Of a stretch of 64,000 nt of DNA, positions 21,119-38,703 are shown one piece after another. The stretch comes from Geodermatophilus dictyosporus (GTDB taxonomy: Bacteria; Actinomycetota; Actinomycetes; Mycobacteriales; Geodermatophilaceae), in assembly GCF_900115505.1 (NCBI RefSeq), contig NZ_FOWQ01000010.1, forward strand, positions 1 through 64,000, read 5' to 3'. Every line of letters begins with the position of its first letter. The first letter of the stretch is position 1. Both the position numbers and the translations under genes were made by a program. The notes beneath the pieces are model-generated. The model was not told the origin of the DNA. It did no database searches and saw only the letters and a program-made list of their open reading frames with translations.

Positions 21119-21160
21119 CTGCAAAATACAGCCACTAAGCGTCGTGCGGACACCAGCCAG

Positions 21161-21493: not shown

Positions 21494-21514
21494 GTATCTA
21501 ACCACCCACCCACC
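21469..21514 (+). repeat. (GGGT)4 quadruplex motif and perfect GGTGGGTGGGTGG hairpin
   Basis: Four G3 runs with single-T loops occupy 21472-21486. This is the minimal and very stable intramolecular quadruplex arrangement. CCACCCACCCACC at 21502-21514 is the perfect complement of the GGTGGGTGGGTGG arm, so the RNA or single strand could instead form a 13-bp hairpin with a loop of about 20 bases. It covers the stop codon of the DUF1524 frame and may act as its terminator. Confidence 0.75.
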
Positions 21515-21584
21515 AAAGAGGAAATCCGACGAGACGGATTGGCCTCCTCGGCAGGGTCGGACGCGCAGGCTTCAGCTTCCTTCC

Positions 21585-22435: not shown

Positions 22436-22524
22436 CAATTTAACCAAGTGAAGTGGTGTTACCGGAGCTAGTGTGAGAGCCAACGCTTCAACTCTACAAT
22501 TACCGCCAAGGAGGTCGCTCGGAG

Positions 22525-23424: not shown

Positions 23425-23859
23425 CTACCGATCTGACGCGGATGTGAGTGCTAGGCGCCCAAGGCTTGATACATCCTTGATCGTCGGGTCCCCGACAAGA
23501 TAGGACATGCCGCGAGCAACATGGCCCCGGAGCAATGCATCCGCCTCGGATGCCGATAGGCTGTCGCCAGAAGACGCGGAACGTTCGAGTAGTAGAGACC
23601 ACCACAACAGTCCGCTAGCGCCGGCGAAGACTGCCCACTCGATCTCCGTCGCGGTATCCGTCGCTGGCGCAGGCGGCGGAGCCGATTCTAGCAGGGAGCG
23701 ACATAGCGCCCACCTACAAAGCACGTTCATGTGCCTAATGCCGGTGCGACGCTTCAAAGTCGCGACCTGCTCCCGCGTTTGCTTGGACAACCGAAGCGAC
23801 GGTGGCGGACTAGGAGGCGGCCCGCCGGGCATCTCGGTCTCTACGCTTGATTTCATCAT
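23425..23859 (-). CDS. dndE: DNA sulfur modification protein DndE
   Basis: A 144-residue protein. The core RLSKQTREQVATLKRRTGIRHMNVLCRWALCRSLLE, then EIEWAVFAG and LLRGHVARGMSYLVGDP, is the DndE family. DndE binds nicked double-stranded DNA through a basic surface and is needed for phosphorothioation. The N-terminal segment is Pro-rich. It starts with a 4-bp overlap after dndD; an ATG pair at 23857-23859 and 23854-23856 offers two starts. It is the last gene of dndBCDE. A run of 180 bp without a gene separates it from the convergent winged-helix gene. Confidence 0.93.
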   Translation of the reverse strand: MMKSSVETEMPGGPPPSPPPSLRLSKQTREQVATLKRRTGIRHMNVLCRWALCRSLLESAPPPAPATDTATEIEWAVFAGASGLLWWSLLLERSASSGDSLSASEADALLRGHVARGMSYLVGDPTIKDVSSLGRLALTSASDR

Positions 23860-25865
23860 GCGACCTCTCCACTCGACTCGGTCACGTAGCCGGTCTCGAT
23901 GCGAGAACTGCGTGTCGTGGCGTCATGCACTAGGTGGACGGTATGGCTGACGGAGGATCCAAGCCGTCGAATCGCTTCCTCATCAACCTCAGCGTCTGTG
24001 GACAACACGATCACCTGATGGGAAGCGTTAGGCAGATAGTTGTCCACGAAGGTTCTGCGATGACTTCGGTCGAGGCGCCCTAGCGGCGTGTCGATTACGA
24101 CGGGCAGCGGCCGGCCTGCGGCCTTCGCCAGGCCCCACAACAGGCTGACGGCAATCATCTGACGCTCGCCGGCTGAGAGCTTGGACGGAAGGATGTCCTT
24201 GCCAGCGGCGTCGATAAGCGTCAGCTTGTGCGTTGTAGGGTCAATCTCGACAGCCTTGAGGAGCCTGTCCTTCCGGAGCAGACTCTGTGCGGCCTCAAGA
24301 ACATGGGCTTCGATCTGCTGAGCATGCCGCGCCGTGGCGATCCCCCGAAGCTGTCGAAGCGTGGCTCGAGCTTTCTCTGAATGACGGAGCAGCCGCTCGC
24401 CATCTTCCGCCGCCAAGCCGGTTCGGGCAGCTCTCTCGAGCTCAATCTTTCGCTTCGCCTCCGCCCGCGTCAGCTCAGCGAGGACCGCGGCGTGCGCCTC
24501 ATGCGCACCGGCAAGAGCGTGGCTGGCTGCCTGCTCCGCCTCCGTGGCGCGCTCACGCTCGAGTACCAGCTCGTGAACGGCTTCTGCGTTGGGGACAGAG
24601 GCCAACTCCACATCGGCACGGTCGACAGCCTCGACCGCCTGCTCCCAATTCGCGAGGAGCTCCTCCACGGACTTGCGGAGCCTCGCCATCCCGCCGCTTG
24701 CAAGGTCCCGCAGCATTTCGGCGCTCTCTGGCGTAACTGCGAACACCGGCTCGACGTGAACCTGCGACCTGCGCTGCCTATCCTCAGTGAGGCTTGTTTC
24801 GACAACCCTTAGGGCCTCTCCCTGAACACTCCCCTCCTTGACGAGGTTGCTCAGGAGGGCAAGAAGCTCCTCGTCGCGGCTCGTCAGCGCCTGCACCACC
24901 CGACGGTCGTTCTCCTGGGTTTGCAGAGCGGACGCCCGTTGCGCGGTGGCCTTCACTAGATCGGGCACTAGGAGTAGGGGCGTGAAGTCTGCCATGGCCT
25001 CGATCAGGCGCGTTTCCGCGAGTCCTCGCGCCACCCGGGCATCCCGGACCTGCTCTTCGATTGCCAGCCGGCTCTCGTGCGACCGTCCACCTTCACGCTG
25101 AAACCGCTCTTCGGCAGCCTGCTTGCGCTCCGTGGCCCTGGCCAACTGTTGCGCCGCCTGGTCGACCTCCTGACGCGCGTCCCGCTCGCGCCCGCGCGTG
25201 CTGTCGAGTGCCGCCTCGAGGTTGCGGAGGTACCGCTCGTCCTCCTCGTCCTTAACGGCTTCGGTGCGCTTACGACGTTCGAGTACTTCAAGGTCCGCGA
25301 CGAGGCGGTCAACGAGGTTCAGTCCCAGGAGTCCGCCGATCGCGGTCTCGAGGAGCCCTCGGCTGACATCGAGGTCAGCGAAGGCTTCGATCTGCTCGCC
25401 GTCGAAAAAGAAGAGTTGGGCCACACCACGGGGTACGAACGCTTCGACGTGCTCGACCCACCGCTCCGACAGCGCCGCGGACGGCAACCCCTCGACTTCG
25501 ACAAGCACGTCCTCACGGATCTTGCCGTTACGGGCCTCCCACCAGGTGCGGCGGATGCGCAGCGGTCGAAATACACCGTCCATGTGCGCCCGAAAGGCCA
25601 GCTCGACTGCGGCTCCGACAGCCGGGTCCTGGGCGTCGTTGATCGCAGCCCGCAGGTAGGCCTCATAACTCATGCCGCGTCGACTACCCGCAGGAGCCAA
25701 TGCACCGAAGAGCGCGAGCTGCAGCGCTTCGAGCACGGTCGTCTTGCCCGTGCCGTTCAAGGCACCGATCAGGATGACCGGACGGTCTTGCTGGGGCGTC
25801 AGCGGCAGGACCTGGCGACCGGCGAAGGCGCCGAAGTCCTTGAGGACCAGTTCATCGAGGATCAC
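23856..25865 (-). CDS. dndD: DNA sulfur modification ATPase DndD
   Basis: A 669-residue SMC/Rad50-like ATPase starting at GTG 25865, overlapping dndC by 4 bp. Walker A is GALNGTGKT at residues 34-42. The ABC signature is LSAGERQM near 565, and Walker B is PVVIDTPLGRLD near 590, followed by a D-loop and switch (VIVLSTDAEVDEEA). The middle is a long coiled coil without a CxxC hook. DndD ATPase activity is required for sulfur insertion, probably by nicking or opening DNA. It works with DndC and DndE. Confidence 0.94.
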   Translation of the reverse strand: MILDELVLKDFGAFAGRQVLPLTPQQDRPVILIGALNGTGKTTVLEALQLALFGALAPAGSRRGMSYEAYLRAAINDAQDPAVGAAVELAFRAHMDGVFRPLRIRRTWWEARNGKIREDVLVEVEGLPSAALSERWVEHVEAFVPRGVAQLFFFDGEQIEAFADLDVSRGLLETAIGGLLGLNLVDRLVADLEVLERRKRTEAVKDEEDERYLRNLEAALDSTRGRERDARQEVDQAAQQLARATERKQAAEERFQREGGRSHESRLAIEEQVRDARVARGLAETRLIEAMADFTPLLLVPDLVKATAQRASALQTQENDRRVVQALTSRDEELLALLSNLVKEGSVQGEALRVVETSLTEDRQRRSQVHVEPVFAVTPESAEMLRDLASGGMARLRKSVEELLANWEQAVEAVDRADVELASVPNAEAVHELVLERERATEAEQAASHALAGAHEAHAAVLAELTRAEAKRKIELERAARTGLAAEDGERLLRHSEKARATLRQLRGIATARHAQQIEAHVLEAAQSLLRKDRLLKAVEIDPTTHKLTLIDAAGKDILPSKLSAGERQMIAVSLLWGLAKAAGRPLPVVIDTPLGRLDRSHRRTFVDNYLPNASHQVIVLSTDAEVDEEAIRRLGSSVSHTVHLVHDATTRSSRIETGYVTESSGEVA

Positions 25866-27436
25866 GGCGTCGCCTCAACCTCATGCTCGTCCCTGCGCTG
25901 AAGCCAGCCCGGTATGGCCTCGGCGTCCTCTGCGGCCTCAGCAAGCTTCTCCTTACGTCGCCGTGCTCTTGCAGCAGCGTCCTCAGCATCGTCATAGAAG
26001 CCCTTGTGGAGCGCGGACTCCAGGGCACCGAAGAGTCCACTGCGGCGCACCATGAGTCGGTGACGCTGCTCGACGTCGAGGAGCTCTCGCACCATCTCGA
26101 AGTGCACTCGATCGCCAGCACAGAGCTCGGCGAGGATCTCCACCTCGGTGCGCCCGAGTGCGAGTCGTTCGCTCAGCTCCGGACCGGTGTAGGACTGGCC
26201 GGTCGCTTCTTCGTAAATTCTCGGGAGGGCGTCCTCGAACTCGTGCTTGTCCACGACCCAGATCCGCCGGATCTCCTCGAGCTCGGCTGGGGTGATCAGC
26301 TGGATGTCCTTGACGTTCTCAGGACCGTGGGTGCGGATCTCCGTTTGAGCGGCAAGCAGCCGGCGCAGCCAGTCGTGCCGAGCTGACTGGAGGTAGGGGC
26401 CGTGGATCGGCTCGTCGTTGAAGAGCTGAACCCGGCCGTTCATGCGTCGGAAGTCCCGCAGCTCCCGGTCGTCGCCGAGGTCGAGTGCGTTGCGCAGTTC
26501 GAGAAGGGGACTCATCCACTCCTTGTCCGCGTCATTCGTGATCATCGCCGTCATGGACTTGTCCTGATCGACGAGCGTGCACGTCCAGCAGCCGAAACGG
26601 CTGGAGCCACAGGATGGTGTCGTCGAATCAACGACCAGAGGACACTCGCCGTCCGAGCTGGCGCCTTGATAGAGGGTGAGCAAGTCCCTATTCGAGTAAC
26701 CCCACGGGTTGTCCACCTGCATGAGGAAGGTCCAGACGTCGTCGTTCGTCCAGTCCTCGATCGGCGAGTAGACGAGTGAGTTCGGAAGGCTGACGTTCGG
26801 CGAGAGGCGGTCTCGGATTCGTCCGGCAGCAGCCGCAGCAGCCATCGTCTTCGCTCGAGCCTGCGATTCGGCCTTGCGGACACCGAGCACGAGGATGGCC
26901 TCGCCGTGGCTCCGTACGACCGAGCGGATGAAGTTGTTGCTCGGCTTGATCTTGAGACGCTCGGTGCACCAGCGGAACTTCGGCCGTGGTGCTGGATAGC
27001 CACGTCCTATGAGGTTGACCCAGAAGCTGTCCTCAACCGCGGGCGTCAGGCGGTGGGGCTCGATCGGCAAACCCTGCGCCACAGCGGTCTCGCCGAGCAC
27101 ATCGAGGCTCCGGCCAACCCAGGCAGCCACGATGGGGTTCTCGACGAGCGTGTCAGTCGTGATGACGTAGACCGTCTTTCGACGCTGTCCGTCAGGGATC
27201 CGTGAGAGGGCGAGCCACACCAGCTGGAGTACGGCGGTGGAGTCCTTGCCGCCGGAGTAGCCGACCACCCAGGGCACGTCGTCCTCGAGGTACAGGCGTG
27301 CCGTTTCATCGACGAGCGCATCGACCGCAGCTCGCATGCCGTCGACGAAGGCGGACCGACGAGTCAAGCCAACGGCGACGGGCTTCGTCCGTCGGTCCGC
27401 CGGTCCTGTCGTCACGGTCTCCGGGCTGGTCGTCAC
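25862..27436 (-). CDS. dndC: DNA sulfur modification protein DndC, PP-loop ATP pyrophosphatase with Fe-S cluster
   Basis: A 524-residue protein related to PAPS reductase. The PP-loop SGGKDS is at residues 61-66. Cys265, Cys276, Cys283 and Cys286 (PSCGSSRFGCWTC region) match the 4Fe-4S ligands of DndC. It activates the DNA backbone or carries sulfur from the desulfurase to DNA. The GTG start at 27436 overlaps the dndB stop by 4 bp. Length is typical of the family. Confidence 0.95.
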   Translation of the reverse strand: MTTSPETVTTGPADRRTKPVAVGLTRRSAFVDGMRAAVDALVDETARLYLEDDVPWVVGYSGGKDSTAVLQLVWLALSRIPDGQRRKTVYVITTDTLVENPIVAAWVGRSLDVLGETAVAQGLPIEPHRLTPAVEDSFWVNLIGRGYPAPRPKFRWCTERLKIKPSNNFIRSVVRSHGEAILVLGVRKAESQARAKTMAAAAAAGRIRDRLSPNVSLPNSLVYSPIEDWTNDDVWTFLMQVDNPWGYSNRDLLTLYQGASSDGECPLVVDSTTPSCGSSRFGCWTCTLVDQDKSMTAMITNDADKEWMSPLLELRNALDLGDDRELRDFRRMNGRVQLFNDEPIHGPYLQSARHDWLRRLLAAQTEIRTHGPENVKDIQLITPAELEEIRRIWVVDKHEFEDALPRIYEEATGQSYTGPELSERLALGRTEVEILAELCAGDRVHFEMVRELLDVEQRHRLMVRRSGLFGALESALHKGFYDDAEDAAARARRRKEKLAEAAEDAEAIPGWLQRRDEHEVEATP

Positions 27437-28665
27437 GACTCACTCCTCGATGCAGTGTCTGATGCAGTGCTGAGACCTGCGCTGGTCAGTGCTTCTTCAG
27501 CGCGTCGTTCGTCCGGCGGCAAGTCCATACCGAGGTGCTGACGAATCACGGCCGTCGTGAGCAGTACGTTGGTCTGTCCCTTGACCACGCGTCCTCCCAC
27601 GAGTGCGCGGCCCTCCCAGAGCGGGTTCTGCCGGCTCCAGTCGAGCGTGCGAAGGGCCCGCAACGTGGCCTGCCAGGCATCGATGTCCCGGTTCTCTCGA
27701 AGCATCGTGTTGCCTACGCGCGCCAGAGCGGCGAGCGTGATGCCGTGCGTGTGGATGAAATCGGCACGGACCTCGGGAGACCTCATCGCACGGTCACGGA
27801 CGCCCTGCCACTCGGGGAGTTGCTCGTCAACCGCCCGCCACCAGCCATCAGCCAGCGCGAACGCTCCGTCCTGGTCCACATCACTGAGTCCCTCGAGCAG
27901 CGTCCGCGTCGCTCCGTGGATGGCCGAGAGGGTGAACAGCTTGCGTGAGGCCTTGGCGAGACTCGAGCTCTCCATCTCGACGAAGCCGCGAAAGACCGGA
28001 CACCGGAGCACGAGGAGCCTCGAGAGACTCGCGTGCAGGTCTCGATGGTCGTAGAGAACACCGATCGACTTGGACGGGCGCACGGCGTGGCGGTTCAGGT
28101 CGGCGAACATCTGTTGGCACCGCTGCAGGCCGACGTCCAGGTAGAAGACGACGGCGATCATCTCTTGTCCCAGCTCGGGAAGCTGCTGGATCGCCTCTTT
28201 GATGGCGGCATGACGATGCTGCCCGTCGTTGATGACGAAGCGGGACTCCATCGGGATGCGGAGGTTGCCCAACAAGCTCGTCTGCGGTCCGTCTCCGACG
28301 GCATCAAATCGGACGGTGCCGTCGATGCTCGCCGTCAACGCGGAGAAGGTGTAACCGGTCGGGTTCTCCACCATGTACCGGACCATCTCGGGGAGGCGCC
28401 CCTTATTGAGGCTTCGCTGCGCGCGGAGCTCGGGGGCTAGTTCGTCCCCGTCGAAGAGGAAGAGCTTGGCGATGACCTTCAGTGGGATCATCGTCACGAA
28501 GAACGTCGTGCCGGCCTGGACACCGCGGATGGCGGGCAGCACATACTCGTAGCCCGACTCGCCACCGTCTCCTAGCTCCCCGACGGGGTCGGGGCCCCCT
28601 TCAACCGGTCCAGTGCTCCGGGCGTCCCGGGGCGCCTTCGTGCCACTGTCCATAGTGCCTGCCAT
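27433..28665 (-). CDS. dndB: DNA sulfur modification regulator DndB
   Basis: The start at 28665 (MAGTMDSGTKAPRD) is preferred because GGGGAGGAG lies about 10 bases upstream. A GTG at 28704 is in frame but would place that site inside the gene. The 410-residue product has the DGQHR motif at 147-151 (FVINDGQHRHAAI), the defining feature of the DGQHR/DndB family, and an AGTTFFVTMIPLKVI N-terminus typical of DndB. In Salmonella DndB represses its own operon, so it may bind the palindrome at 28728. First gene of dndBCDE. Confidence 0.93.
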   Translation of the reverse strand: MAGTMDSGTKAPRDARSTGPVEGGPDPVGELGDGGESGYEYVLPAIRGVQAGTTFFVTMIPLKVIAKLFLFDGDELAPELRAQRSLNKGRLPEMVRYMVENPTGYTFSALTASIDGTVRFDAVGDGPQTSLLGNLRIPMESRFVINDGQHRHAAIKEAIQQLPELGQEMIAVVFYLDVGLQRCQQMFADLNRHAVRPSKSIGVLYDHRDLHASLSRLLVLRCPVFRGFVEMESSSLAKASRKLFTLSAIHGATRTLLEGLSDVDQDGAFALADGWWRAVDEQLPEWQGVRDRAMRSPEVRADFIHTHGITLAALARVGNTMLRENRDIDAWQATLRALRTLDWSRQNPLWEGRALVGGRVVKGQTNVLLTTAVIRQHLGMDLPPDERRAEEALTSAGLSTASDTASRSES

Positions 28666-28727
28666 GCTCGTGCCGCTCCTCCCCATGCCGCGGCCGCTTG
28701 CCACGACAGACGTTAAGTCGACGACGT

Positions 28728-28753
28728 CGTTACGTCAAAACTTTCACGTAACG
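28728..28753. promoter_or_regulatory. 8+8 bp palindrome between divergent dndB and dndA, candidate DndB operator
   Basis: CGTTACGT and ACGTAACG are perfect inverted repeats separated by 10 bases (CAAAACTTTC). They sit in the only intergenic space between dndB and dndA, in an unusually AT-rich patch. From memory, the Salmonella DndB operator is described as TACG-N10-CGTA; here the TACG and CGTA cores are 12 bases apart. A second, self-complementary ACGACGTCGT lies at 28721-28730. A single site could control both transcription units. Confidence 0.65.
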
Positions 28754-28831
28754 TGTCGCTCTGCGCCGCTAGCATGGCGTCGTCGAGGGACGGGCTCCGC
28801 CGTTGTCCACAGCTCGAGTGGGAGGATCCCC

Positions 28832-29968
28832 ATGCCGGCCTACTGGGACGTCAGCGCCACCACCCCGGTGGACCCGAGGGTGGCCGAGCTGGTCCTCCGG
28901 CTCATGACGGAGGAGTTCGGCAACGCTGGCAGTCGTACTCATGAGTACGGGGCTGCAGCCCTGTCTGAGGTGTCGACCGCACGGCGCCGCATCGCCAGCT
29001 GCCTTGCGGCCACGCCAGAGGAAGTGGTCTTCACCTCTGGAGCCACGGAGGCAGACAACCTCGCCCTCCTCGGCCTTCGGGCGCACGGCGAGACGACGGG
29101 AAGGCGACACGTCGTGACGACAGCCGTCGAGCACAAGGCGGTCCTCGAGCCAGTCGCCGAGCTACAGAAGTCCGGTTTCGACGTGGATGTCATCCCCCCG
29201 AACAGCAACGGGATCGTCGACGCAGAACGGGTGCTCTCTGCTGTTCGAGACGACACGCTGCTCGTCTCCGTCATGCACGCGAACAACGAGACGGGTGCGA
29301 TTCAGCCCATCCCGGACATCAGCGCAGGCCTAGCGGGTCGAGAGGCCCATCTCCACGTCGATGCTGCACAGACGTTCGGCAAGCTGGATGACGAGTTGAG
29401 TCACCCGCGCATCGACCTCATCTCGCTCAGCGGCCACAAGGTGTTCGGCCCCAAGGGCGTTGGCGCCCTCATCACTCGACGTCGCGGCTGGCGGCGACCA
29501 CCCCTCACGCCTCTCACCTTCGGCGGAGGGCAAGAGCGAGGCCTTCGTCCTGGCACGTTGCCTGTTCCCCTCGTGGCAGGACTCGGTCTTGCAGCCCGCC
29601 TGGCTCATGAGGAACGAGCGAGCCGCCATCAAGCCGCTGAGGCGTTGCGAACGACGGTGCTGGAGGCGCTCTCCCCCGCCGAACCCCAATTGAACGGTGA
29701 CCCCGACCGCCGCCTACCGCACATCCTCAACATCTCTTTTCCCGATGCTGACGGGGAGGCTGTCATGCTGGCCTGGCGGGACCTGGTAGCAGTATCGAAC
29801 GGCAGCGCTTGCACGTCGGCCAGTTACCAGCCGAGCCATGTGCTCACCGCAATGCAGCTACCCGAGGCGCGCGTACGGGGCGCCCTCCGTCTGTCCTGGG
29901 CTCACGACGCCGCGGAAGTGGACTGGAGTGAGGCAGCGCGTCGGGTCAACGGTCTCCGCGGCGTCTAG
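28832..29968 (+). CDS. dndA: Cysteine desulfurase DndA (IscS-like)
   Basis: The ATG at 28832 follows GGGAGGA and gives a 378-residue class V aminotransferase fold. Visible are ATEADNLAL, His101 (AVEHK, cofactor stacking), DAAQTFGK, the PLP Lys203 in SGHKVFGPKG, and the catalytic Cys327 in SNGSACTSAS. It removes sulfur from L-cysteine and passes it to DndC. Having its own dndA, rather than borrowing IscS, is one of the two known arrangements. It is transcribed away from dndBCDE and its stop overlaps the end of the convergent methyltransferase gene. Confidence 0.93.
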   Translation: MPAYWDVSATTPVDPRVAELVLRLMTEEFGNAGSRTHEYGAAALSEVSTARRRIASCLAATPEEVVFTSGATEADNLALLGLRAHGETTGRRHVVTTAVEHKAVLEPVAELQKSGFDVDVIPPNSNGIVDAERVLSAVRDDTLLVSVMHANNETGAIQPIPDISAGLAGREAHLHVDAAQTFGKLDDELSHPRIDLISLSGHKVFGPKGVGALITRRRGWRRPPLTPLTFGGGQERGLRPGTLPVPLVAGLGLAARLAHEERASRHQAAEALRTTVLEALSPAEPQLNGDPDRRLPHILNISFPDADGEAVMLAWRDLVAVSNGSACTSASYQPSHVLTAMQLPEARVRGALRLSWAHDAAEVDWSEAARRVNGLRGV

Positions 29969-31434
29969 TCCGCCGGCCTCCTGACGAGGCGGTGTCCCCG
30001 CAGTTCGACGCCACAGCGGGCCAGTTCGTCCTTCCAACCCTTCTCCAGCCCGATCACCTCGGGCCGCTCATACAATCCCGCCCGAACCTCCTGCGCCGTC
30101 AGCCTGCGGTACTTGGGCACGGCAGGGTCATCGGGCGACACGAACTCTTCCTTGCGATGGAGCAGCGGTCGGTTTGCACGCTCCTCATATGAGGTGTGCA
30201 CGGCGTCGAGCGTTGACATGGATACGGCGTACGACCAGGCCAACCGTGGGTGGGGGTCGGTGTCGAAGTCGGGGTAGGCCGACCACGACACCTGACGACC
30301 GCTGTGGTTGAGCTTCAAGACGTCCCAGCCGTCGGGCCGCCCTGCCGCTACGGCGCCACAGTGCTCGTAAAGTCGTAACACAACCGGCATGTGCTCGGTT
30401 GCGCGGCGATGGACGTACAGGGCTGTGGGCGTCAACTTGCCGACGCTGTTGCGCATGGCACCTCTGACATATGAGTCGTCCCTCAGCTTGAGCAGTAGCC
30501 GGTCCGCGCGCGCACAAGCTTCCCGATAGCTGTCAAAGCACGCGCGCAGGTCCAACTGCACGCTCAGCGGCAACTCCGAGGGCTTGGGTCGTCCCACGAA
30601 CGCGGACACCCCCAGGAACAAGAGGGTGTCCAGGATCGCCTTCGTCCGTCCACGCTCCACTCGCTCAGGAGCCGCACCTTGTATCACGAGGCGACGCAGC
30701 TCCCCCTGCCTCACATGGCGGAGTAGTGGCAGCAAGTGGTCGGGATACTCCTCGATCGCAGGCAGACGACCCCGCCGCTCGAAGTAATCGATCACCGCGG
30801 CGAGGGCGGAGGCTTCGTCCTCCCCGGTGAGCCACACTCCTTGACCCGCGACTCGGTGAGCGAGGAACCGGAGTCGTTGACGCTCGCTCTTGAAGGCGTA
30901 GACGACCCCGGGAGCTCCCGCGGCCGTCCGCGCGCCGGTGACGGACTCCACGAGGTCCCTGAGCTCGCGTGGCCTGAAGAGTCGCTGGAAAGTCTGACGA
31001 CTGGTGAGAGTGCCATCGGCGGAAGGCGTACCAGTGAGCTTGTGTCGCTCCCAGGAGAGGCGCGTACTCACGATCAACACCTGGTCAGCGAGCGCCCACG
31101 CTCTACGCAGAGTGTCGTTGCGCTCCCGTGGGTCCTCGATGACGTTGAGCACGTAGACGAGCAAGACCGCGTCATGTCGGGTGGGCACCGTGTCCTTGGC
31201 CCAGTGAGGGTCCCATCCCTGAACGTCGAAGCCCATGGATTGAAGCCGCTCGACGTCACCTCCGCGCCCACTACCGAAGTCGAGAACCGACATCTCGGTC
31301 TGGATGACTCCATCGAGGAGCGCCTGCTTCGTCGGCATGGACAGGCCCTGACGAACCAAGGCCGTTCGGTGCCGGAGAACAGGCTGCCCGCTCACGCGGC
31401 GGCTCGTCGACGAGCGATGACGGACCAAGGACAT
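29965..31434 (-). CDS. DNA phosphorothioation-associated putative methyltransferase
   Basis: Started at 31434 (MSLVRHRSSTSRRVSG) because GAGGAGG is directly upstream; longer in-frame starts at 31503 or 31614 would run into the divergent promoter. The product is 489 residues. RHRTALVRQGLSMPTKQALLDGVI followed by the SAM motif VLDFGSGRGGDVERL (about 49-63) and WDPHW matches the family found beside dnd genes (TIGR04096, from memory). The C-terminal 300 residues (VYVHRRATEHMPVVLRLYE in part) are family-specific. Its substrate is unknown; DNA or sulfur-modified DNA is inferred from context. Confidence 0.88.
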   Translation of the reverse strand: MSLVRHRSSTSRRVSGQPVLRHRTALVRQGLSMPTKQALLDGVIQTEMSVLDFGSGRGGDVERLQSMGFDVQGWDPHWAKDTVPTRHDAVLLVYVLNVIEDPRERNDTLRRAWALADQVLIVSTRLSWERHKLTGTPSADGTLTSRQTFQRLFRPRELRDLVESVTGARTAAGAPGVVYAFKSERQRLRFLAHRVAGQGVWLTGEDEASALAAVIDYFERRGRLPAIEEYPDHLLPLLRHVRQGELRRLVIQGAAPERVERGRTKAILDTLLFLGVSAFVGRPKPSELPLSVQLDLRACFDSYREACARADRLLLKLRDDSYVRGAMRNSVGKLTPTALYVHRRATEHMPVVLRLYEHCGAVAAGRPDGWDVLKLNHSGRQVSWSAYPDFDTDPHPRLAWSYAVSMSTLDAVHTSYEERANRPLLHRKEEFVSPDDPAVPKYRRLTAQEVRAGLYERPEVIGLEKGWKDELARCGVELRGHRLVRRPAD

Positions 31435-31455
31435 CCACCTCCTCAATAGCCACGT

Positions 31456-31516
31456 GCGTCTCAGACGCTCCTCTATGGGGGCACTCCGGCGGCGTCCTGC
31501 CATACGGATGCATCCG
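31456..31516. promoter_or_regulatory. Two palindromes in the divergent promoter of methyltransferase and sigma-like gene
   Basis: GCGTCT-C-AGACGC at 31456-31468 and the perfect 12-bp palindrome CGGATGCATCCG at 31505-31516 lie in the 178 bp between the divergent start codons. A CACGTG hexamer abuts the first. Either could be a regulator site; the neighbouring 745-residue DNA-binding protein is a possible ligand. No -35/-10 pair can be assigned with confidence. Confidence 0.4.
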
Positions 31517-31612
31517 GTCGTCGGAGAATCTGGCACGCCGAACGGTGGGTGGTCGACATGGAGCCCTAGAGAACCTGACGGCATCGCATCGACGGGGATA
31601 CGAGGAAGAACC

Positions 31613-33850
31613 ATGCAGCAGACAAGCTCGTCAGCCGATCAGGACGTCGTCCTGCGATGGATTGACGCCTTCCCCTGGATCGGCGCGCTCAGCGGCGAGG
31701 GCGATGGCGAGGGCGGCTGGTGGCTACTCGCTGTGGATCCACCAGCCAGCACCGCTCGGTGGCAGCGTCTCGGCTGGCTCGCCGAGATGGCGATCGAGCG
31801 CCTGACGCGGTGGACCATCGGGCAGATCTTCCCCGGGCTCCCGGGCAGCACGGACCTCGGCGCACTCAACCTGCCGACCCGGATCCGCAACGCCTGTATG
31901 CGCGAGGGCTACTCGTCCGTGGCGGAGTTGCAGGTCCTCTACCTCGAGGACGTCCTCGGATGGCACTACGTCGGCGTCGGCAGTGTGGAGAGCTTGCTCC
32001 GGACCCTCGGGGACGCGGCGATGACCCGGACAGATCCCCTGCCCGAACGAGCGGCCGGTCCTGCCGCCCAATTGGACCTCCTGGAATGGTCCACTACGGT
32101 TTGGCCGGCTGACTGGACCTTGACGACGCCCACTGTCGCCCCGGTGCTCGATGAGATGCGGCGCTTGGCCACCTTTCAAGCTCTCATCGGGCGAGCGGAC
32201 GAGTCGATGCTTGTCGAGACGCCTTCGGCGCTGCTGCCGTGGGAGCTACGAGAGCTGCAACGGCGGCTCCGCGACCTCAGCGCTACCGACGTCATCGGGG
32301 AGGACGTCGATCTGCTGAGCGCCTCAGCGGTGATCGATGCCGCCCTCCGAGTTTTCGAACCCCGCGTCCTCGCGATCCTCGCTCAACGCTTCTTCGCTGA
32401 CGAACCGCGGACCCTGGACGAGATCGGACGCCAGCTTGAGGTCACACGCGAGCGCGTGCGGCAGCTGGAAGGGAAGGCCCGCGCTCGCCTCATCAGCTTG
32501 ATCGATCAGGGTGGATCACTCGCGGATCTCGCTGCCGTCGTCCGCTCGCGTATCGACGGCTTGTTGCCGTTGGCGGATCTGCTGGTCGACATCCCCGCAC
32601 TAGGTGAACGCGTCCCCGCTGTCGGCTGGCCTGCGTGGCGCGTCATCGACCGGATCGACGACGCCTACGAGATCGAGGACGGTTGGTGCGCAGCCCCGTC
32701 AATGGCCGCCGCTCGCGACAGAACCCATGCGCGACTGCAGGACCTGGCCGACCGTCACGGGGTCGTGCCCCTGGCCGACTACGGTGACCTGAATCAGGTG
32801 CATGCCGCACCTGATCCGCTCGAGACGCTGAGGAACTGGCTCCAGTACTGCGGCTACGTCGTTGACGGGACCTTCGTCTACATCCGCACGCAGTCGGTTG
32901 ATGACCGAGCCGCGGCCATCCTGTCCGTCACCGGCTCACCCCTGTCGGCTCAGGAGCTCGTCGACCGCTTCGAGGTGGAGAGGAGTGCCGGCTCACTACG
33001 CAACGCAATGTCCACGGACGACCGTTTCATCCGGGTCGACCGCGATCGATGGGCCCTCGCTGAGTGGGGTCACGAGGCGTACGGCGGCATCAAGGACGTC
33101 ATTCGACAGCAGGTGGCGCAGGGAGGGGGGTCGGTGCCTCTCACCGCGTTGATCGAGTATGCGACGAGTCGCTACAGCGTCTCAGCGAACAGCGTGACCG
33201 CCTACGCGAACGCCCATCCCTTCGAGACCATCGCCGGCACTGTCCGCCTGTCCCGTGGGGACCGAACCGCGAGGAAGACGCCCAGCCGGACCCGGCGCTT
33301 ATATCGGCGAAGTGACAGCTGGGTCTACCGGATCACCGTGACGAACGACCACCTCCGCGGAAGTGGCTCCGTTGCGCCGATCGCCATCGCCGGCGTTGTG
33401 GACCTTGCACCGGACCGGACGGTCTACCTCGAGTCACCCCTAGGACGGCAAGCGATCGCCTGGACGGGGATTCAGCCCGCTTTCGGGACGATCAGACGAT
33501 TCCTCGCTCGCGATGATGCCGCGCCGGGTGAAGAGTTCTTCTGTGTCATCGCGGACGGCGGATGGTTCGACCTACAGCGTGTGGCTCCGCTCAGCGGAGC
33601 ACCGCTGCAGGCCGCCCTCCGACTGTCAGGGCAGGACGACGCGCTCACCGGGGCCGATGCACTTACCGCCCTGAGTGCCGCCATCGGACTTCCCGAGCAC
33701 TCCACAGCGGTCACGGTCCTCGGTGGCTTCCGCGAGCGCGGCGACCAAGACATCGCGGACCTGCTCACGTCAGCTCGTCACCTGCTCGAAGAGACGCAGT
33801 CCTCTGCGTTCGTGGACGCAGATGTGAACGAGATCCTGGACCTGCTGTGA
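31613..33850 (+). CDS. Large multi-HTH protein with sigma-70 region 4 in the dnd cluster
   Basis: 745 residues from ATG 31613, preceded by GAGGAAG. Residues about 85-135 (LNLPTRIRNACMREGYSSVAELQ, GVGSVESLLRTL) resemble the alpha-subunit C-terminal helix-hairpin-helix. Residues about 265-300 (TLDEIGRQLEVTRERVRQLEGK) are sigma-70 region 4. About 434-490 (LSAQELVDRF, FIRVDRDRWALAEWG) resembles a HARE-HTH winged helix. The remainder is unrecognised. No sigma region 2 is seen, so it is not a complete sigma factor. It starts the operon whose next gene overlaps it by 4 bp. It may regulate the locus or recognise modified DNA; both are inference. Confidence 0.8.
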   Translation: MQQTSSSADQDVVLRWIDAFPWIGALSGEGDGEGGWWLLAVDPPASTARWQRLGWLAEMAIERLTRWTIGQIFPGLPGSTDLGALNLPTRIRNACMREGYSSVAELQVLYLEDVLGWHYVGVGSVESLLRTLGDAAMTRTDPLPERAAGPAAQLDLLEWSTTVWPADWTLTTPTVAPVLDEMRRLATFQALIGRADESMLVETPSALLPWELRELQRRLRDLSATDVIGEDVDLLSASAVIDAALRVFEPRVLAILAQRFFADEPRTLDEIGRQLEVTRERVRQLEGKARARLISLIDQGGSLADLAAVVRSRIDGLLPLADLLVDIPALGERVPAVGWPAWRVIDRIDDAYEIEDGWCAAPSMAAARDRTHARLQDLADRHGVVPLADYGDLNQVHAAPDPLETLRNWLQYCGYVVDGTFVYIRTQSVDDRAAAILSVTGSPLSAQELVDRFEVERSAGSLRNAMSTDDRFIRVDRDRWALAEWGHEAYGGIKDVIRQQVAQGGGSVPLTALIEYATSRYSVSANSVTAYANAHPFETIAGTVRLSRGDRTARKTPSRTRRLYRRSDSWVYRITVTNDHLRGSGSVAPIAIAGVVDLAPDRTVYLESPLGRQAIAWTGIQPAFGTIRRFLARDDAAPGEEFFCVIADGGWFDLQRVAPLSGAPLQAALRLSGQDDALTGADALTALSAAIGLPEHSTAVTVLGGFRERGDQDIADLLTSARHLLEETQSSAFVDADVNEILDLL

Positions 33851-35991
33851 CGGTGATTGGTGCTGTTGCACCGACCGGACTGCGCTCGATAGCCCTCGCC
33901 AGTCGATACCGCAGCGACCGCGAGGACGTCGTCCAGTCCTTCTACGTACCTGCGCTGTCGCAGGCCGTCAGCTACAGCCGGGCGGTCGGCTACTTCACGT
34001 CGACCAGCCTCGCTCTGTTCGCTCGCGGAATCCGCCGACTGGCAGACCGCGGCGGGAAGATGCGGCTCATCGCGTCACCGCACCTGGACGCGGCGGACAT
34101 CGCTGACATCGAGCGGGGCTATGAACTCCGCGAGGTGATGGAACGAGCCATCGTTCGGGAGCTCGCTGCCGCAGACTCAGAACGATTGCTCGATGGGTTG
34201 AGCTTGGTCGGCCAGCTCATCGCCCAGGGCGTCCTCGACATCAAACTCGCTTTCGTCGAGCGCGATGGGCGAGTCGGGCTGTACCACGAAAAGCTCGGCA
34301 TCTTGCGCGACGAGTCTGGCGACCTCGTGGCGTTCACGGGAAGTTCTAACGAGACGATGGGTGGACTCATTGCGAACTTCGAGTCCATCGAAGTTTACCA
34401 GGGTTGGGTTCCAGGAGACGGGTCGCGAGCGCTGCGCCTTGAGGCCGACTTCGACAACCTCTGGGCGAACGACACGTCTCATCTCCAGGTGATGGACTTC
34501 CCCGCGGTGGCACGAGATCGGTTGATCGAGGTCGCCAGGGACCGGCCGGACCGCGCACCCCACGAGAGTGATGAAGCTCTTACGCCGCGTCGCGCCGAGG
34601 TGTCCCACCTCGTCCACCTACGGCTGCCGGCCGGCTTCACGCCCCGGAACTACCAGGGCGAAGCAGTCAAGGGTTGGCTGAGCAACCGAGGCCGCGGCAT
34701 CCTCAAGATGGCGACTGGCACCGGCAAGACCAAGACAGCCCTCGTGGCGGCGACTCACCTGAGTCACGTCCTGCAACGCCGCGAGGAACCCCTCGTCGTC
34801 GTGATCGTCGCGCCGCTCCAGCACCTGGTCGACCAGTGGGTCGATGAGGTGGAGACCTTCGGCGTCCGGCCGGTCGCCATCTATGAATCGAGCCAGCGAT
34901 GGCTGCCGGCCGTCGAGGAGCAGCTGACTGCGTCTCGCCTCGGACAACGGCCGGTCGTCGTCTTCGTCGCGACCAATGCGTCCTTCTCGGGCGCACGCTT
35001 CCAGGAGATCCTCGCCCGGATCGCTCAACCTCTGCTGATCATCGCTGACGAGGCTCACAATCTGGGATCCGCGGCTTATCGCACGGCACTGCCGACGCGC
35101 GCAACGTACCGACTCGCTCTGTCCGCGACACCGGAGAGGTGGCTGGACGACGAGGGGACAGCTGCCCTCACTGAGTACTTCGGTCCTGTCGTCTATGAGC
35201 TCGACCTGGGCCGGGCGATCGAACTCGGGGCCCTGTGCCGCTATCGCTACATCCCTCGACTGGTGGAGCTGACGGATGCAGAGACCATCCTGTACACCGA
35301 CCTCACCGCCCAGATCGCACAACGACTAGCCGCCGGTGAGTCCGTTACGGATGACTCGGATTCGCCCCTCGGCCAGTTGCTCCGTAAGAGAACGGGGGTC
35401 CTCGGGCACGCCGCCGGCAAGCTGACGGCAGTAGGGCAGGACGTCGAACAGCGCACAGGCGCTTGGTTCCAGCTCATCTACTGTGCCGAAGGTCGGCGAC
35501 CCGGCGAGCCAGGCGACCCGCCTGGACCCAGGCAAATTGAGCAGGTCATGGACCTCGTCGGCAATCGACTGGGGCTGAGCGCACATACTTACGTGTCCGA
35601 TACTCCGCGACGCGACCGCAGCGGGCTCCTACGGCGCTTTGGATCCGGCAACGATCTCCGAGCTCTCGTTGCGATGAAGTGCCTTGACGAGGGAGTCGAC
35701 GTACCCGACGCCCGCGTCGCTTACCTATTGGCGAGCAGCAGCAACCCGCGCCAGTTCATCCAACGGCGCGGCAGGATCCTGCGCCGCGCACCTGGGAAGG
35801 AGCAGGCGGAGATCCTCGATTACATCGCTGTCCCAAGGGCGGATGCGCCCGTTAACTTCGATGTGGAGAGAAAGCTCCTCATCCGCGAGTTGGCAAGGGT
35901 GAATGAGTTCGGCCGGCTCGCAGAGAACTACGGAGACACGCTGGCGGCACTTCGTCCCCTCAAAGAGCGCTACCAACTTATGCACCTCTGA
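33847..35991 (+). CDS. PLD-nuclease/DEAH helicase, phosphorothioation-system restriction enzyme
   Basis: 714 residues from GTG 33847, overlapping the preceding stop by 4 bp. The N-terminal phospholipase-D-like domain has YHEKLGILRDESG (HxK near 146) and FTGSSNET, a nuclease signature. The helicase has Walker A MATGTGKTKTA near 288, DEAH (IADEAHNLGSAAYR) near 400, SATPER, a GVDVP motif and QFIQRRGRILR near 640. It resembles the family annotated as DNA phosphorothioation system restriction enzyme (TIGR04095, from memory). It probably cuts unmodified DNA, replacing DndFGH in this locus. Confidence 0.88.
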   Translation: MTVIGAVAPTGLRSIALASRYRSDREDVVQSFYVPALSQAVSYSRAVGYFTSTSLALFARGIRRLADRGGKMRLIASPHLDAADIADIERGYELREVMERAIVRELAAADSERLLDGLSLVGQLIAQGVLDIKLAFVERDGRVGLYHEKLGILRDESGDLVAFTGSSNETMGGLIANFESIEVYQGWVPGDGSRALRLEADFDNLWANDTSHLQVMDFPAVARDRLIEVARDRPDRAPHESDEALTPRRAEVSHLVHLRLPAGFTPRNYQGEAVKGWLSNRGRGILKMATGTGKTKTALVAATHLSHVLQRREEPLVVVIVAPLQHLVDQWVDEVETFGVRPVAIYESSQRWLPAVEEQLTASRLGQRPVVVFVATNASFSGARFQEILARIAQPLLIIADEAHNLGSAAYRTALPTRATYRLALSATPERWLDDEGTAALTEYFGPVVYELDLGRAIELGALCRYRYIPRLVELTDAETILYTDLTAQIAQRLAAGESVTDDSDSPLGQLLRKRTGVLGHAAGKLTAVGQDVEQRTGAWFQLIYCAEGRRPGEPGDPPGPRQIEQVMDLVGNRLGLSAHTYVSDTPRRDRSGLLRRFGSGNDLRALVAMKCLDEGVDVPDARVAYLLASSSNPRQFIQRRGRILRRAPGKEQAEILDYIAVPRADAPVNFDVERKLLIRELARVNEFGRLAENYGDTLAALRPLKERYQLMHL

Positions 35992-36017
35992 CCCATCTCA
36001 CGAAGAAGGACGAACCA

Positions 36018-36182
36018 ATGACACAGAGCCGTCGCACCGAGCAAGAGGTGCTGCAGCAATTGTCCGCCGAGGAGAGGCTCCTCCTGAAGCGCGTATTGGA
36101 GATCGAACGAGCGAAGCTCCACATTACGGCTCACGATCCGACGGACGACATCATCCGAGCGGTCAAGGAGATCATCCCGTGA
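36018..36182 (+). CDS. Small helical protein of 54 residues in restriction operon
   Basis: ATG 36018 follows GAAGAAGGA and the frame ends at TGA 36180-36182, overlapping the next GTG by 4 bp. The product (MTQSRRTEQEVLQQLSAEER then LLLKRVLEIERAKLH) is predicted to be two helices with a short acidic link (DPTDDIIRAVKEIIP). No family is recognised. Tight coupling to the Rad50-like ATPase gene suggests a subunit of that complex, as with small adaptors of SMC proteins; this is inference. Confidence 0.75.
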   Translation: MTQSRRTEQEVLQQLSAEERLLLKRVLEIERAKLHITAHDPTDDIIRAVKEIIP

Positions 36183-38236
36183 GACTCCACGAGATCACTC
36201 TCAAGAACTTCCGCCAGTTCGCGGGCGAGCAGAGACTTCCACTGACCTCGGACGGGCTTCGACCCGTGTCGCTGGTCTTCGGCGGCAACGGCGCAGGCAA
36301 GACCACCCTCCTGAACGCCTTCACGTGGGCTCTGTACGGCACTGTCTCCGAGGACGTCGAGGAGCAGCAGCGCATGGTGAGCGACGGCGTGTGGCGCCAG
36401 ACGCCGATCGGGCTGAGCGTCGAGCTGTCCGTGGAACTCCTCTTCGACCATGACGGACTCAGGTATCGACTCCTGCGGACCGCAGATGTGCGGAAGGAGT
36501 CGGACGATCAGAGGCAGCCGACCGGCGTTCTGCACCTGTGGCAGACGCTCCACGACGGCTCCACCGAGGTGGTTAACGCACCTCAGGAGCGGGTTCTCAG
36601 CATCCTGCCCATGGGTGTCAGCCGCTTCTTCTTCTTCAACGGTGAGCGCATCGAGAAGCTGGTGCAGAAGGGCGCTTACAGCGAGGTGCAGGAGGACATC
36701 AAAGTCCTCCTCGACCTCGAGCAGGTCGAACGCGCCCTGCAGCATCTGCCTCGAGTGGACCGCCGACTCAGCGCCGACCTGAAGCGGCACGGCGGAGACC
36801 GAGCAAACGAGATCCAGACCGCCATCGAGGCACTGCAGGACCAAGAAGGCGCAACTCGCGAAGAGCTCTCGGTGATCGAAAGGGACCTGGCCCTCCTCAT
36901 GGAGGAGCGCGAGCAGGTTACCGATCTGCTCCGCCAAAACGCCAGTGTCGCTCCCCTACAGCGAGAGCGTGACACCGTTGCTCAGGAGCTGGAAGAGGCC
37001 CGCTCCGCCCGGCGGACGGCAGAAGCTCAGCGGTCGACGATCATCGCCACGCGGGGCTTCATCGCCTTCACCGGTCGGCTGTCAGGCACCACGATCGCCA
37101 TGGCCGAGAAGTTGTACGAACGGGGGGCACTTCCCGCACCCCTCAAGCGGGAGTTCGTCGATCAACTCCTCGAGCAGCAGGCATGCATCTGCGGCACCTC
37201 CTTGGCAGACCACTCCCCGGCGCGGCACGCCGTCCAGGACTGGAGGCAACGAGCGGGGCTGCAGGCGGTGGAGACCGCATGGCAACGTCTACACGGGCAG
37301 CTCGACCAGCTAGACAAGGCTCGCGACCAACTCCAGGAAGACCTTCAGCAGGTCGCCGGGCGCATGGTCGTCGAAAGCGACCGTGTCGAGCGCCTAGAGG
37401 CACGGAAGTCCGAGCTCGACCGGCAGCTCAAAGACAGCCGGCTGGAGGAAGTCCAGGAGCTCGAGAGCAAGCGCCTGGGCCTGGAAGCGCAGATCGCCAG
37501 CAAGCAGCAGCGACTCGGCCTCCTGCAAGCCACCCTCGAGTCCATCGCGAAGCAGCTGGGCCAGAAGGAGACGGAGCGGACCCGTGCCGCGGTGACCGAC
37601 GAGCTGGCGACCAAGGCTCGCTCACGGTCGGAACTCGTACAGGCAGTACGCCGAGCGTTGAATGAGATCCTCACGATCCGCGCCGACGACATGCGGCGGC
37701 GGTTGGATCGCAAGCTCAAGGACGTCTTTGCGAGCATCTCCTTCAAGCCGTACGTACCCCAGCTCAGCGAGCGCTTCGAGTTGTCACTCACCCAGATGGT
37801 CGACGGAGTGGAACTTCCGGTCCCCAAGTCCACGGGAGAGAACCAGATCCTGAGCTTGTCCTTCGTCGCGGCGGTGTCCGAACTCGCTCGTGAGATCAGA
37901 AAGGGCAGACGAGCCGAAGGTGAGAGTTCTGAGGACGCGGGCGCTTACCCCATCGTGATGGATGCAGCCTTCGGCTCTCTGGACGAGAACTACCAGCGGG
38001 AGGTGTCGCGTGCGCTCGCGGAGATGGCGCCTCAGTTGGTCGTGTTCGTAAGCAAGAGCCAAGGCATGGGACATGTCGTCGAGAATCTGCTACCGCACGT
38101 CAGTCATCTCGGCGTCATCGTCACTCACACCTCGCAGCCCGACGTCGGCGAGACGATCGAGCTCGAAGGCATGACGTACCCCTACATCATGTCAGGGGTT
38201 GAGATGAACCGCGCAGAACTGAAGGTGATCCGATGA
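36179..38236 (+). CDS. Second DndD/Rad50-like ATPase
   Basis: 685 residues from GTG 36179. Walker A is GGNGAGKT at 35-42. A long coiled coil is interrupted near residue 336 by ACICGTSL, a CxC element in the position of a zinc hook. The signature is ENQILSLSFVAAVSELARE near 554, and Walker B is PIVMDAAFGSLDE near 591. It differs from DndD in the hook and in Walker B, so it is not a simple duplicate. It lies between a 54-residue gene and a dnd-associated protein 4-like gene, overlapping both by 4 bp, and probably forms the ATPase core of a restriction or surveillance complex. Confidence 0.87.
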   Translation: MRLHEITLKNFRQFAGEQRLPLTSDGLRPVSLVFGGNGAGKTTLLNAFTWALYGTVSEDVEEQQRMVSDGVWRQTPIGLSVELSVELLFDHDGLRYRLLRTADVRKESDDQRQPTGVLHLWQTLHDGSTEVVNAPQERVLSILPMGVSRFFFFNGERIEKLVQKGAYSEVQEDIKVLLDLEQVERALQHLPRVDRRLSADLKRHGGDRANEIQTAIEALQDQEGATREELSVIERDLALLMEEREQVTDLLRQNASVAPLQRERDTVAQELEEARSARRTAEAQRSTIIATRGFIAFTGRLSGTTIAMAEKLYERGALPAPLKREFVDQLLEQQACICGTSLADHSPARHAVQDWRQRAGLQAVETAWQRLHGQLDQLDKARDQLQEDLQQVAGRMVVESDRVERLEARKSELDRQLKDSRLEEVQELESKRLGLEAQIASKQQRLGLLQATLESIAKQLGQKETERTRAAVTDELATKARSRSELVQAVRRALNEILTIRADDMRRRLDRKLKDVFASISFKPYVPQLSERFELSLTQMVDGVELPVPKSTGENQILSLSFVAAVSELAREIRKGRRAEGESSEDAGAYPIVMDAAFGSLDENYQREVSRALAEMAPQLVVFVSKSQGMGHVVENLLPHVSHLGVIVTHTSQPDVGETIELEGMTYPYIMSGVEMNRAELKVIR

Positions 38237-38703
38237 CGGCGCCACTGCTCGACGTCCGAATCAGGCGACCAAAGCAGCACGAGAGACTGCTGCAGGAACT
38301 TCGGGACGAGGCCGGCTTTCCGACGTTTCGCGATGGTCTACTCTTCGCCGCGGCCTTGGGTGTCCGACACGAACGCCGAGAGCCCTTCACTGAGACGGCC
38401 GGCGATCCCATTCGGTACGAGACCCTGACTGTCCCGGCCTTCGCGGAAGCCTTCGTCAGCATGCTGGCTGCGAATGAGGTGCCGGACGATCCCGAGGTCA
38501 TGGACGACCGACGTCTCGAGGAGAGGGTGCGGATCTTCGAGGAGTACGCCCACGGCGGACTCAGCTATCTCCAAGGGGAGATAAACGTAAGGCACCAACC
38601 CATCTCGGCGATCGTTTGCGACGAGGTGACCAATGCCCTGACGGAGAGTGAAGGTGCGGAGGCCGCATCGGTCGAAGAACTCCTTGGCGGAGTGAGTTGG
38701 TGA
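38233..38703 (+). CDS. dnd system-associated protein 4-like
   Basis: 156 residues, overlapping the ATPase stop by 4 bp. The pattern VRIRRPKQHERLLQELRDE, FRDGLLFAAALGVRHERREPF, GDPIRYET, LEERVRIFEEYAHGGLSYLQGE resembles dnd-associated protein 4 (TIGR04062, from memory). It is also weakly reminiscent of DndE in its YAHGGLSYL segment. A role as DNA-binding partner of the adjacent ATPase, as DndE is to DndD, is inferred. It is the last gene of the five-gene overlap block. Confidence 0.75.
   Translation: MTAPLLDVRIRRPKQHERLLQELRDEAGFPTFRDGLLFAAALGVRHERREPFTETAGDPIRYETLTVPAFAEAFVSMLAANEVPDDPEVMDDRRLEERVRIFEEYAHGGLSYLQGEINVRHQPISAIVCDEVTNALTESEGAEAASVEELLGGVSW

Follow-up and report, generated by a model that had tools for sequence, protein, structure and literature searches.

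The first 64,000 nt of contig NZ_FOWQ01000010.1 of Geodermatophilus dictyosporus (GCF_900115505.1, forward strand), the whole stretch analysed here and hereafter called the window, carry a locus that is best assigned to the known DndABCDE-PbeABCD class of phosphorothioate defence systems, its pbe operon including a putative fifth gene. We labelled this gene sigH, a name coined in this analysis for the sigma-like protein that precedes PbeA. All the named dnd, pbe and sigH genes are real, with open frames at approximately the coordinates given below and far above chance. What is new here is the sigma-like protein SigH beside PbeA; the PbeABCD module itself was already described in 2019 and 2024.

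A complete Dnd module adjoins a PbeABCD cassette

Family calls for the modification genes were made with NCBIfam models judged by their curated cut-offs. All five DndABCDE proteins exceed these values, which upholds the complete DndA-E set named in a first-pass annotation of this DNA. On the minus strand, dndE (23425..23859) scores 76.8 bits with TIGR03184 (cut-off 71.85; PF08870 1.3e-23), dndD (23856..25865), encoding the ABC ATPase of the modification module, 520 bits with TIGR03185 (cut-off 246), dndC (25862..27436), encoding a PP-loop sulfurtransferase, 668 bits with TIGR03183 (cut-off 290), and dndB (27433..28704), with its DGQHR motif, 457 bits with TIGR03233 (cut-off 328). The true start of dndB probably lies near 28653, as the profile aligns with the longest frame only from residue 52 onwards. 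Divergent from dndB, dndA (28832..29968, plus strand) encodes a cysteine desulfurase (TIGR03235, 487.9 bits; cut-off 480). Motifs expected of active enzymes are present, namely SGGKDS in DndC (at residue 61), SGHK and SACT in DndA, and GALNGTGKT in DndD, which we take to be the PP-loop, the lysine and cysteine loop, and the Walker A motif, respectively. The associated methyltransferase of the first list was likewise recovered as a DNA phosphorothioation-associated putative methyltransferase gene (29965..31434, minus strand; TIGR04096, dnd_rel_methyl, 457 bits; cut-off 150). Between it and sigH lies a divergent intergenic region of 178 bp, as computed from the coordinates (31435..31612), which presumably holds promoters for both the methyltransferase side and the sigH-pbe operon. 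Start codons were revised for dndA (ATG 28832), the methyltransferase (ATG 31434), sigH (ATG 31613), pbeA (GTG 33847), pbeC (GTG 36179) and pbeD (38233).

The restriction side runs on the plus strand. pbeA (33847..35991) encodes an HKD/PLD-type nuclease with an SF2 helicase (PADLOC PbeA, 841 bits). The protein falls below the NCBIfam TIGR04095 cut-off (542 vs 600 bits), its PLD domain (PLDc_2) below that of Pfam (25.1 vs 27), and its HKD spacing is longer than in the HKD pattern searched for, which remained unmatched; H145, K147, D153, G163, S164, N166, GTGKT and the DEAH region are invariant in the four aligned sequences. The 54-residue product of pbeB (36018..36182) shares 75% identity over 49 residues with the open reading frame (ORF) in the same slot of genome G392 (G and L numbers are our designations of genomes and loci), and the pbeB-slot ORFs of L077-L079 are also similar to it. 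When the longest ORF of 35-110 residues between pbeA and pbeC was picked by script, 62 of 63 loci yielded one, a count that includes some plainly spurious ORFs and comes without a chance control; the row of the window is empty since the pbeC frame extends back over the gap. A sequence pattern is clearly common to closer relatives only, and the 54-residue protein is, judged by its position and its similarity to close relatives, PbeB. Next, pbeC (36179..38236) encodes a CxC-type ABC ATPase (PADLOC PbeC, 848 bits) with a Walker A motif and CIC at residue 336, and pbeD (38233..38703; dnd_assoc_4) scores 78.7 bits with TIGR04062 (cut-off 74.25). Stop/start overlaps of 4 nt join pbeB to pbeC (GTG) and pbeC to pbeD (ATG), and the order A-B-C-D fits Pbe, with a PLD/SF2 PbeA, a tiny PbeB, an AAA_23/CxC PbeC and a small PbeD. 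The restriction side of the window is almost certainly the known PbeABCD cassette.

Two papers frame the comparison. In the archaeal system of Xiong et al. 2019 (PMC6459918), where the second and fourth pbe proteins measure 66 and 152 aa (54 and 156 aa in the window), defence depends on phosphorothioate and on pbeABCD; all four genes contribute, pbeB, pbeC and pbeD being absolutely required and pbeA partly, and viral DNA replication is blocked without cleavage or degradation. The window has the matching modification genes and the four pbe genes in identical order but, unlike that system, adds dndB, the TIGR04096 methyltransferase and sigH before pbeA; the terms 'sigma', 'helix-turn-helix' and 'HTH' do not occur in the main text of PMC6459918. 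The re-analysis by Rakesh, Aravind and Krishnan 2024 (PMC10853773) re-annotates PbeC, now placed among the CxC ABC ATPases, and PbeD, now regarded as cognate to DndE, argues that Pbe cleaves DNA, and reports HARE-HTH domains fused to restriction nucleases in Dnd loci. The window resembles its CxC ABC-ATPase systems in the CxC PbeC, the HKD-SF2 PbeA and the small, rapidly evolving PbeB, and the sole 'sigma' passage in its main text deals with a variant of DndH and with no protein encoded before pbeA. The homology between PbeD and DndE proposed there was undetectable in our profile comparison (hhalign, 9 PbeD vs 6 DndE rows; probability 0.24, E 0.25).

These identifications revise the earlier picture of a non-canonical restriction module with an undescribed 54-mer and second ATPase: the module is the PbeABCD described in 2019 and re-analysed in 2024, and the two proteins, together with the one listed as associated protein 4, are its PbeB, PbeC and PbeD. 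The profile search of each protein proposed at that stage called the dnd genes, pbeA, pbeC and pbeD with NCBIfam or PADLOC models, TIGR04095 remaining under its cut-off. The reported lack of DndFGH could be extended in part from the window to the genome searched as a whole (4.69 Mb, 16 contigs), where DndF and DndH gave no match, while a Massilia plasmid, the positive control, returned both; the search did not include DndG. DndH also reached its cut-off in none of 118 class genomes and none of 20 Pbe-locus genomes, in searches that preceded the positive control.

SigH joins several DNA-binding-like domains

sigH (31613..33850, plus strand) encodes a multi-domain, DNA-binding-like protein of 745 aa. 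Its first recognisable part is an alpha-CTD-like helix-hairpin-helix (approximately residues 82-132) with a weak Pfam match in the window (0.18); the same match exceeds the cut-off in the SigH homologues of G392 (2.2e-6), L068 (9.3e-10) and L080 (2.6e-6), and in G392 this stretch aligns with RNA polymerase alpha chains (1z3e_B at 6.4e-5). A SigA-like sigma region 4 follows at residues 244-293 (Pfam 6.5e-11), aligning best with SigA-type sigma factors, recognition helix included. Then come a HARE-like winged helix-turn-helix (wHTH; approximately residues 428-487; Pfam HARE-HTH, E 0.04), a second wHTH read from the sequence (residues 488-545) and, C-terminal to this pair, a conserved RGSG region and tail. 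HARE is linked to the RNA polymerase delta subunit, and sigma region 2 serves core binding and -10 recognition. Region 4 was the only sigma region that Pfam (to E 10) and NCBIfam (to E 0.001) reported in SigH, so the protein is unlikely to be a working sigma factor. Bacterial proteins combining RNA polymerase alpha and sigma features with HARE-HTH, a combination that SigH may share, were reportedly noted by Aravind and Iyer in 2012, who are not known to have linked them to Pbe.

The sigma-region-4, multi-HTH protein of the first-pass annotation is hence confirmed, and its role is undescribed among the open-licence papers found, none of which links a SigH-like protein to Pbe. MzaA of the MZA defence system was tried as an identity for SigH and rejected, as the two have a sigma-region-4 stretch in common but only ~67 residues align, at 37 bits with NF041931 against a cut-off of 800. 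A search of 50,697 phage records at 1e-5 turned up no match to SigH. A Microbacterium relative is annotated in plasmid records as 'sigma factor-like helix-turn-helix DNA-binding protein'.

We compared the domains across 11 Pbe-linked SigH copies, expressing conservation as the mean identity of the ten others to the window copy. The two parts of the HARE/wHTH stretch were best conserved, with 51% and 41%, versus 35% for sigma 4 and 26% for the alpha-CTD, and they reach at least 20% identity to the window in each of the copies, even in the truncated L081 and G575, which no other stretch does. The sigma-4 motif [TS]RER[VI]RQ is retained in eight of the 11 copies; it has decayed in L081, G575 and G263, where HARE/wHTH is kept. 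In G392, SigH is in frame with four tandem zinc-binding HNH-like repeats (L064 11084-12766; count read from the translation). A well-kept HARE/wHTH, a decaying sigma 4 and the HNH-like repeats of G392 together point to SigH as a core that reads DNA or its modification and to which interchangeable DNA-binding parts are added.

sigH accompanies pbeA in several actinobacteria

The predicted GTG start of pbeA at 33847 overlaps the sigH stop by 4 nt, with an alternative GTG at 33853, 2 nt behind the stop. All ten actinobacterial loci inspected, which were selected for sigH directly before pbeA and whose starts are predicted, offer an in-frame pbeA start codon that would share 1 or 4 nt with the sigH stop. 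In the far analogues L097 and L102 (see below) a start lies 3-4 nt past the upstream stop, and in Arthrobacter StoSoilB13 (L159) the sigH-pbe order matches, with pbeA and pbeC split over frames, perhaps by assembly error. Gene order and possible stop/start overlaps recur across several families, and sigH and pbeA are probably co-translated.

Co-variation was scored over eight loci. SigH similarity tracked that of PbeA (rho 0.91) and PbeC (0.89; 28 pairs each), versus 0.66 for DndC (28 pairs), 0.27 for the methyltransferase and 0.08 for DndA (21 pairs each); the p-values should be read with caution, given that the pairs are non-independent and that some loci have incomplete DndA and methyltransferase frames. 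In the window, L079 and L192 the dnd block is found to the left of sigH, and in L077, L078, L080, L081, G263, G392, G575 and StoSoilB13 it follows to the right of the pbe cassette; sigH remains with pbeA whichever side the dnd block takes. As its similarity tracks PbeA and PbeC and its gene stays with pbeA, SigH probably belongs functionally to the Pbe effector side.

Distribution of sigH among Pbe loci and beyond

We collected PbeA relatives from genome contigs and ran an iterated SigH profile on all ORFs of the best 80 of 129 confirmed loci. Over the inclusion limits, sigH lies directly before pbeA in five of them (Arthrobacter, Nocardioides, Nocardia, Streptosporangium and Streptomyces); it is also found before pbeA in genomes G392 and G263. 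Weak sigma-4-like matches to the profile appeared in L091, L092, L097 and L106. The upstream ORFs of 52 further loci among the 80 were scanned with Pfam (sets of 10 and 44, two loci in both), and three far architectural analogues emerged before pbeA: the proteins of L097, L102 and L106 have sigma 4, two of the three also alpha-CTD, and L107 holds a partial relative of the L106 protein. In the set of 44 loci, neither sigma 4 nor alpha-CTD was among the upstream matches listed (25 of 43 families). The remaining 23 of the 80 loci offered no suitable upstream ORF, or just a short one or a pbeA fragment. The SigH-linked rows cluster in the PbeA tree as a single group of nine (SH-aLRT 99), with one row (L082) that lacks sigH in the stretch examined.

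A phylum sample of 396 genomes yielded seven with near full-length PbeA (E below 1e-130), and sigH precedes pbeA in three of these, the source genome (G000), G392 and G263. A census of 394 class genomes, G000 included, returned seven with strong PbeA (E up to 1e-80) and 43 with a SigH-family match (E up to 1e-20). sigH stands beside the pbe cassette in five of these seven, directly before pbeA in G000, G392, G522 and G575 (a truncated copy, located by profile) and convergent, beside the gene after pbeC, in G484. The conserved co-occurrence envisaged in the first-pass annotation is borne out in part: actinobacterial pbeA frequently has sigH beside it, whereas Pbe systems in general do not.

Neighbourhoods of SigH relatives away from Pbe were surveyed in part. 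In G582 (L197) a relative stands before a complete GmrSD gene of like orientation; in G556 (L199) a relative and a REase-ARP gene share a 4-nt overlap; and in G754 (L203, a split gene) a relative follows MmeI and a weak helicase match. Two small Microbacterium plasmids have relatives amid UvrD, PD-(D/E)XK and DUF4011 genes, two Mycolicibacterium plasmids have no recognised nuclease adjoining theirs, and the tested neighbours in G600 (L198) were uninformative. In a SigH tree of 20 rows with long branches, the Pbe-linked rows are scattered, with at least three forced changes, and L197, the row linked to GmrSD, branches as sister to the six-row group that contains the window (97/95). Proteins of the SigH family have likely exchanged partners, as far as such comparisons can suggest.

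Some of these loci present features of their own. Three small plasmids of one Microbacterium chocolatum strain (L160, L161) carry a SigH relative, and in the two examined UvrD/PD-(D/E)XK/DUF4011 genes adjoin it, a set that could form a separate defence system. Family f90 (L190, L191 and similar) comprises pairs of SigH-family genes a few kb apart in many genomes, adjoined in L190 by a methyltransferase-domain gene. In Arthrobacter sp. AK04 a second PLD/SF2 helicase with DUF3427 (L077 4302-7568) stands directly before sigH-pbeABCD. L091 (14903-16069) and L092 (14902-15954), both without sigH, hold a smallish ORF 3' of pbeC, to which their sigma-4-like match belongs. L106 (8919-10379) and L107 (6188-7615), Pbe loci without dnd genes in the stretch examined, each have a gene 3' of pbeD with a weak radical-SAM match under the cut-off and, in L106, a weak B12-binding match; it may possibly encode another DNA modification enzyme paired with Pbe. 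In G685 the slot before pbeA is taken by a 257-aa protein with an Lsr2 DNA-binding domain (L195 2666-3436), an alternative DNA binder in the place of sigH, and SigH relatives occur elsewhere only.

SigH as a putative reader subunit of the Pbe effector

On balance, we favour a Dnd-Pbe phosphorothioate defence in which SigH would be an accessory DNA-reader subunit of the Pbe effector, and we consider the protein somewhat more probably such a reader than a pure regulator. DNA binding, contact with PbeA and modification sensing are properties that we infer. Going by known families, DndA would provide sulfur, DndC together with the DndDE pair would introduce it into host DNA at a short motif, DndB would tune this modification, and PbeABCD would block DNA that has no sulfur mark. 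SigH, acting in complex with PbeA, would grip DNA through its alpha-CTD-like and sigma-4 modules and probe the DNA or its modification state with the HARE/wHTH pair, which is recognisable in all 11 Pbe-linked copies; its family may serve further restriction enzymes. The HARE-HTH nuclease fusions in Dnd loci (PMC10853773) offer a parallel for such a HARE reader.

Several observations weigh against this proposal. According to PMC6459918, the archaeal dndCDEA-pbeABCD set works by itself in a heterologous host, so the basic mechanism does not require SigH. The five loci with sigH among the 80 are all actinobacterial; sigH was not found in the stretches examined of G207, G388, G366 and G051, four of the seven PbeA genomes of the phylum sample, and is absent beside pbe in two of the seven of the class census, G530 (in the stretch examined) and G685. 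Since 37 of the 43 SigH-positive class genomes have no strong PbeA, the SigH family is wider than Pbe, and the relative in G288 (L066) lies amid housekeeping genes, none of its neighbours being a recognised nuclease. The HARE assignment is weak by Pfam, being under the curated cut-off both in the window (0.04) and in L080 (0.0052). Lastly, the Pbe link does not define one clade in the SigH tree, itself weak, and its clustering was matched by 67 of 500 shuffles.

Control proteins exist in restriction-modification operons, and the chief alternative, possible though rather doubtful, is that SigH is a transcription regulator of this kind for the sigH-pbe operon, its sigma-4 and alpha-CTD modules binding the 178-bp divergent region and delaying or inducing pbe until host DNA is marked. 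The place of sigH as first operon gene behind that region, a sigma-4 recognition helix nearly that of SigA and the alpha-CTD resemblance all agree with such a role, into which the Lsr2-type protein before pbeA in G685 would fit too. However, the truncated copies of L081 and G575 as well as that of G263 have lost the sigma-4 motif and retain HARE/wHTH, DndB is described in the literature as already controlling dnd, and no conserved operator was seen by eye, without a motif program, in the upstream stretches of eight loci. Pairing with several unrelated nucleases and the in-frame HNH-like fusion of G392 would also be less expected of a regulator.

A bolder extension of the reader proposal, which we rate as unlikely, would make the SigH family a general, swappable targeting subunit of restriction systems built from DNA-contact parts of RNA polymerase, which in actinobacterial Dnd-Pbe systems would read promoter-like DNA, helped by a near-intact sigma-4 recognition helix and the lack of region 2, and, via HARE, modification, and would hold the sulfur-dependent PbeABCD on unmarked invaders; were it true, invaders would be recognised partly by their promoters. 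Improbable, too, is a rival reading in which SigH guides PbeABCD towards promoter-like DNA or towards the RNA polymerase on invading DNA, where a protein without sigma region 2 could sit on promoters without starting transcription. It draws on the resemblance of SigH to the DNA-contact modules of alpha, sigma and, through the link of HARE, delta, and on the motif kept in eight of 11 copies and recurring as TRER[VI]RQ in the far analogues L097, L102 and L106, and it would fit the replication block without cleavage reported for archaeal Pbe. The loss of sigma 4 in L081, G575 and G263 argues against it, as does the archaeal four-gene cassette, which as described contains no SigH.

Modification plus classical restriction by the PLD/DEAH enzyme, with the other genes ancillary, was the view of the first-pass annotation and now appears very improbable. 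Although the HKD-type residues and helicase motifs of PbeA are invariant and the 2024 re-analysis (PMC10853773) favours cleavage, archaeal pbeB, pbeC and pbeD are absolutely required and pbeA partly, with viral DNA neither degraded nor cleaved in the 2019 account; restriction through PLD/DEAH cleavage is thus not established. That the island is decaying and SigH a mere hitch-hiker, as its low GC (0.59-0.66 vs 0.70-0.78) and a broken GmrSD gene next door might suggest, is scarcely credible with all dnd, sigH and pbe frames open, catalytic motifs present, and gene order and possible overlaps recurring in several families.

The 2019 and 2024 papers disagree on how Pbe discriminates marked from unmarked DNA and on whether it cuts. 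A recurrent, probably co-translated neighbour of PbeA provides a handle on this question, as its mapped DNA targets could reveal what Pbe inspects. If the SigH family serves several unrelated restriction enzymes, it would represent a shared recognition part of bacterial immunity, which none of the open-licence papers found has tested.

Genomic setting and neighbouring genes

GC content dips to 0.59-0.66 between ~20 and 42 kb of the window, versus 0.70-0.78 elsewhere, and because of this drop the dnd-sigH-pbe locus appears to lie in an acquired-looking island. The closest named relatives of its PbeA are actinobacterial. The window has no tRNA gene, and the search for island-boundary repeats between 16 and 48 kb gave just short, chance-like ones (without a chance estimate). 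Immediately 3' of pbeD, a PD-(D/E)XK nuclease gene (38807..39490, plus strand; PF14281, PDDEXK_4, 3.4e-10; PADLOC PDC-S26 4.8e-15) is a candidate neighbour, its membership in the system not being implied.

On the other side, a GmrSD/SspE-like gene (PADLOC Orf5; 19622..21118, plus strand; PF03235 2.7e-32, PDLC02695 6e-145) is interrupted by an in-frame stop at 21116-21118 and apparently broken. GmrSD-like ORFs also occur near sigH in L078, L079, L192 and L197; because they are found as well in the sigH-less Pbe loci L090, L105 and L126, the link between GmrSD and sigH is not specific. Past the stop at 21116-21118, HNH-like sequence, as read from the translation, seems to run on in frame, and the ORF at 21366-22451 bears likeness to the C-terminal part of a type IV restriction enzyme model; 19622-22451 looks like a decayed second restriction gene.

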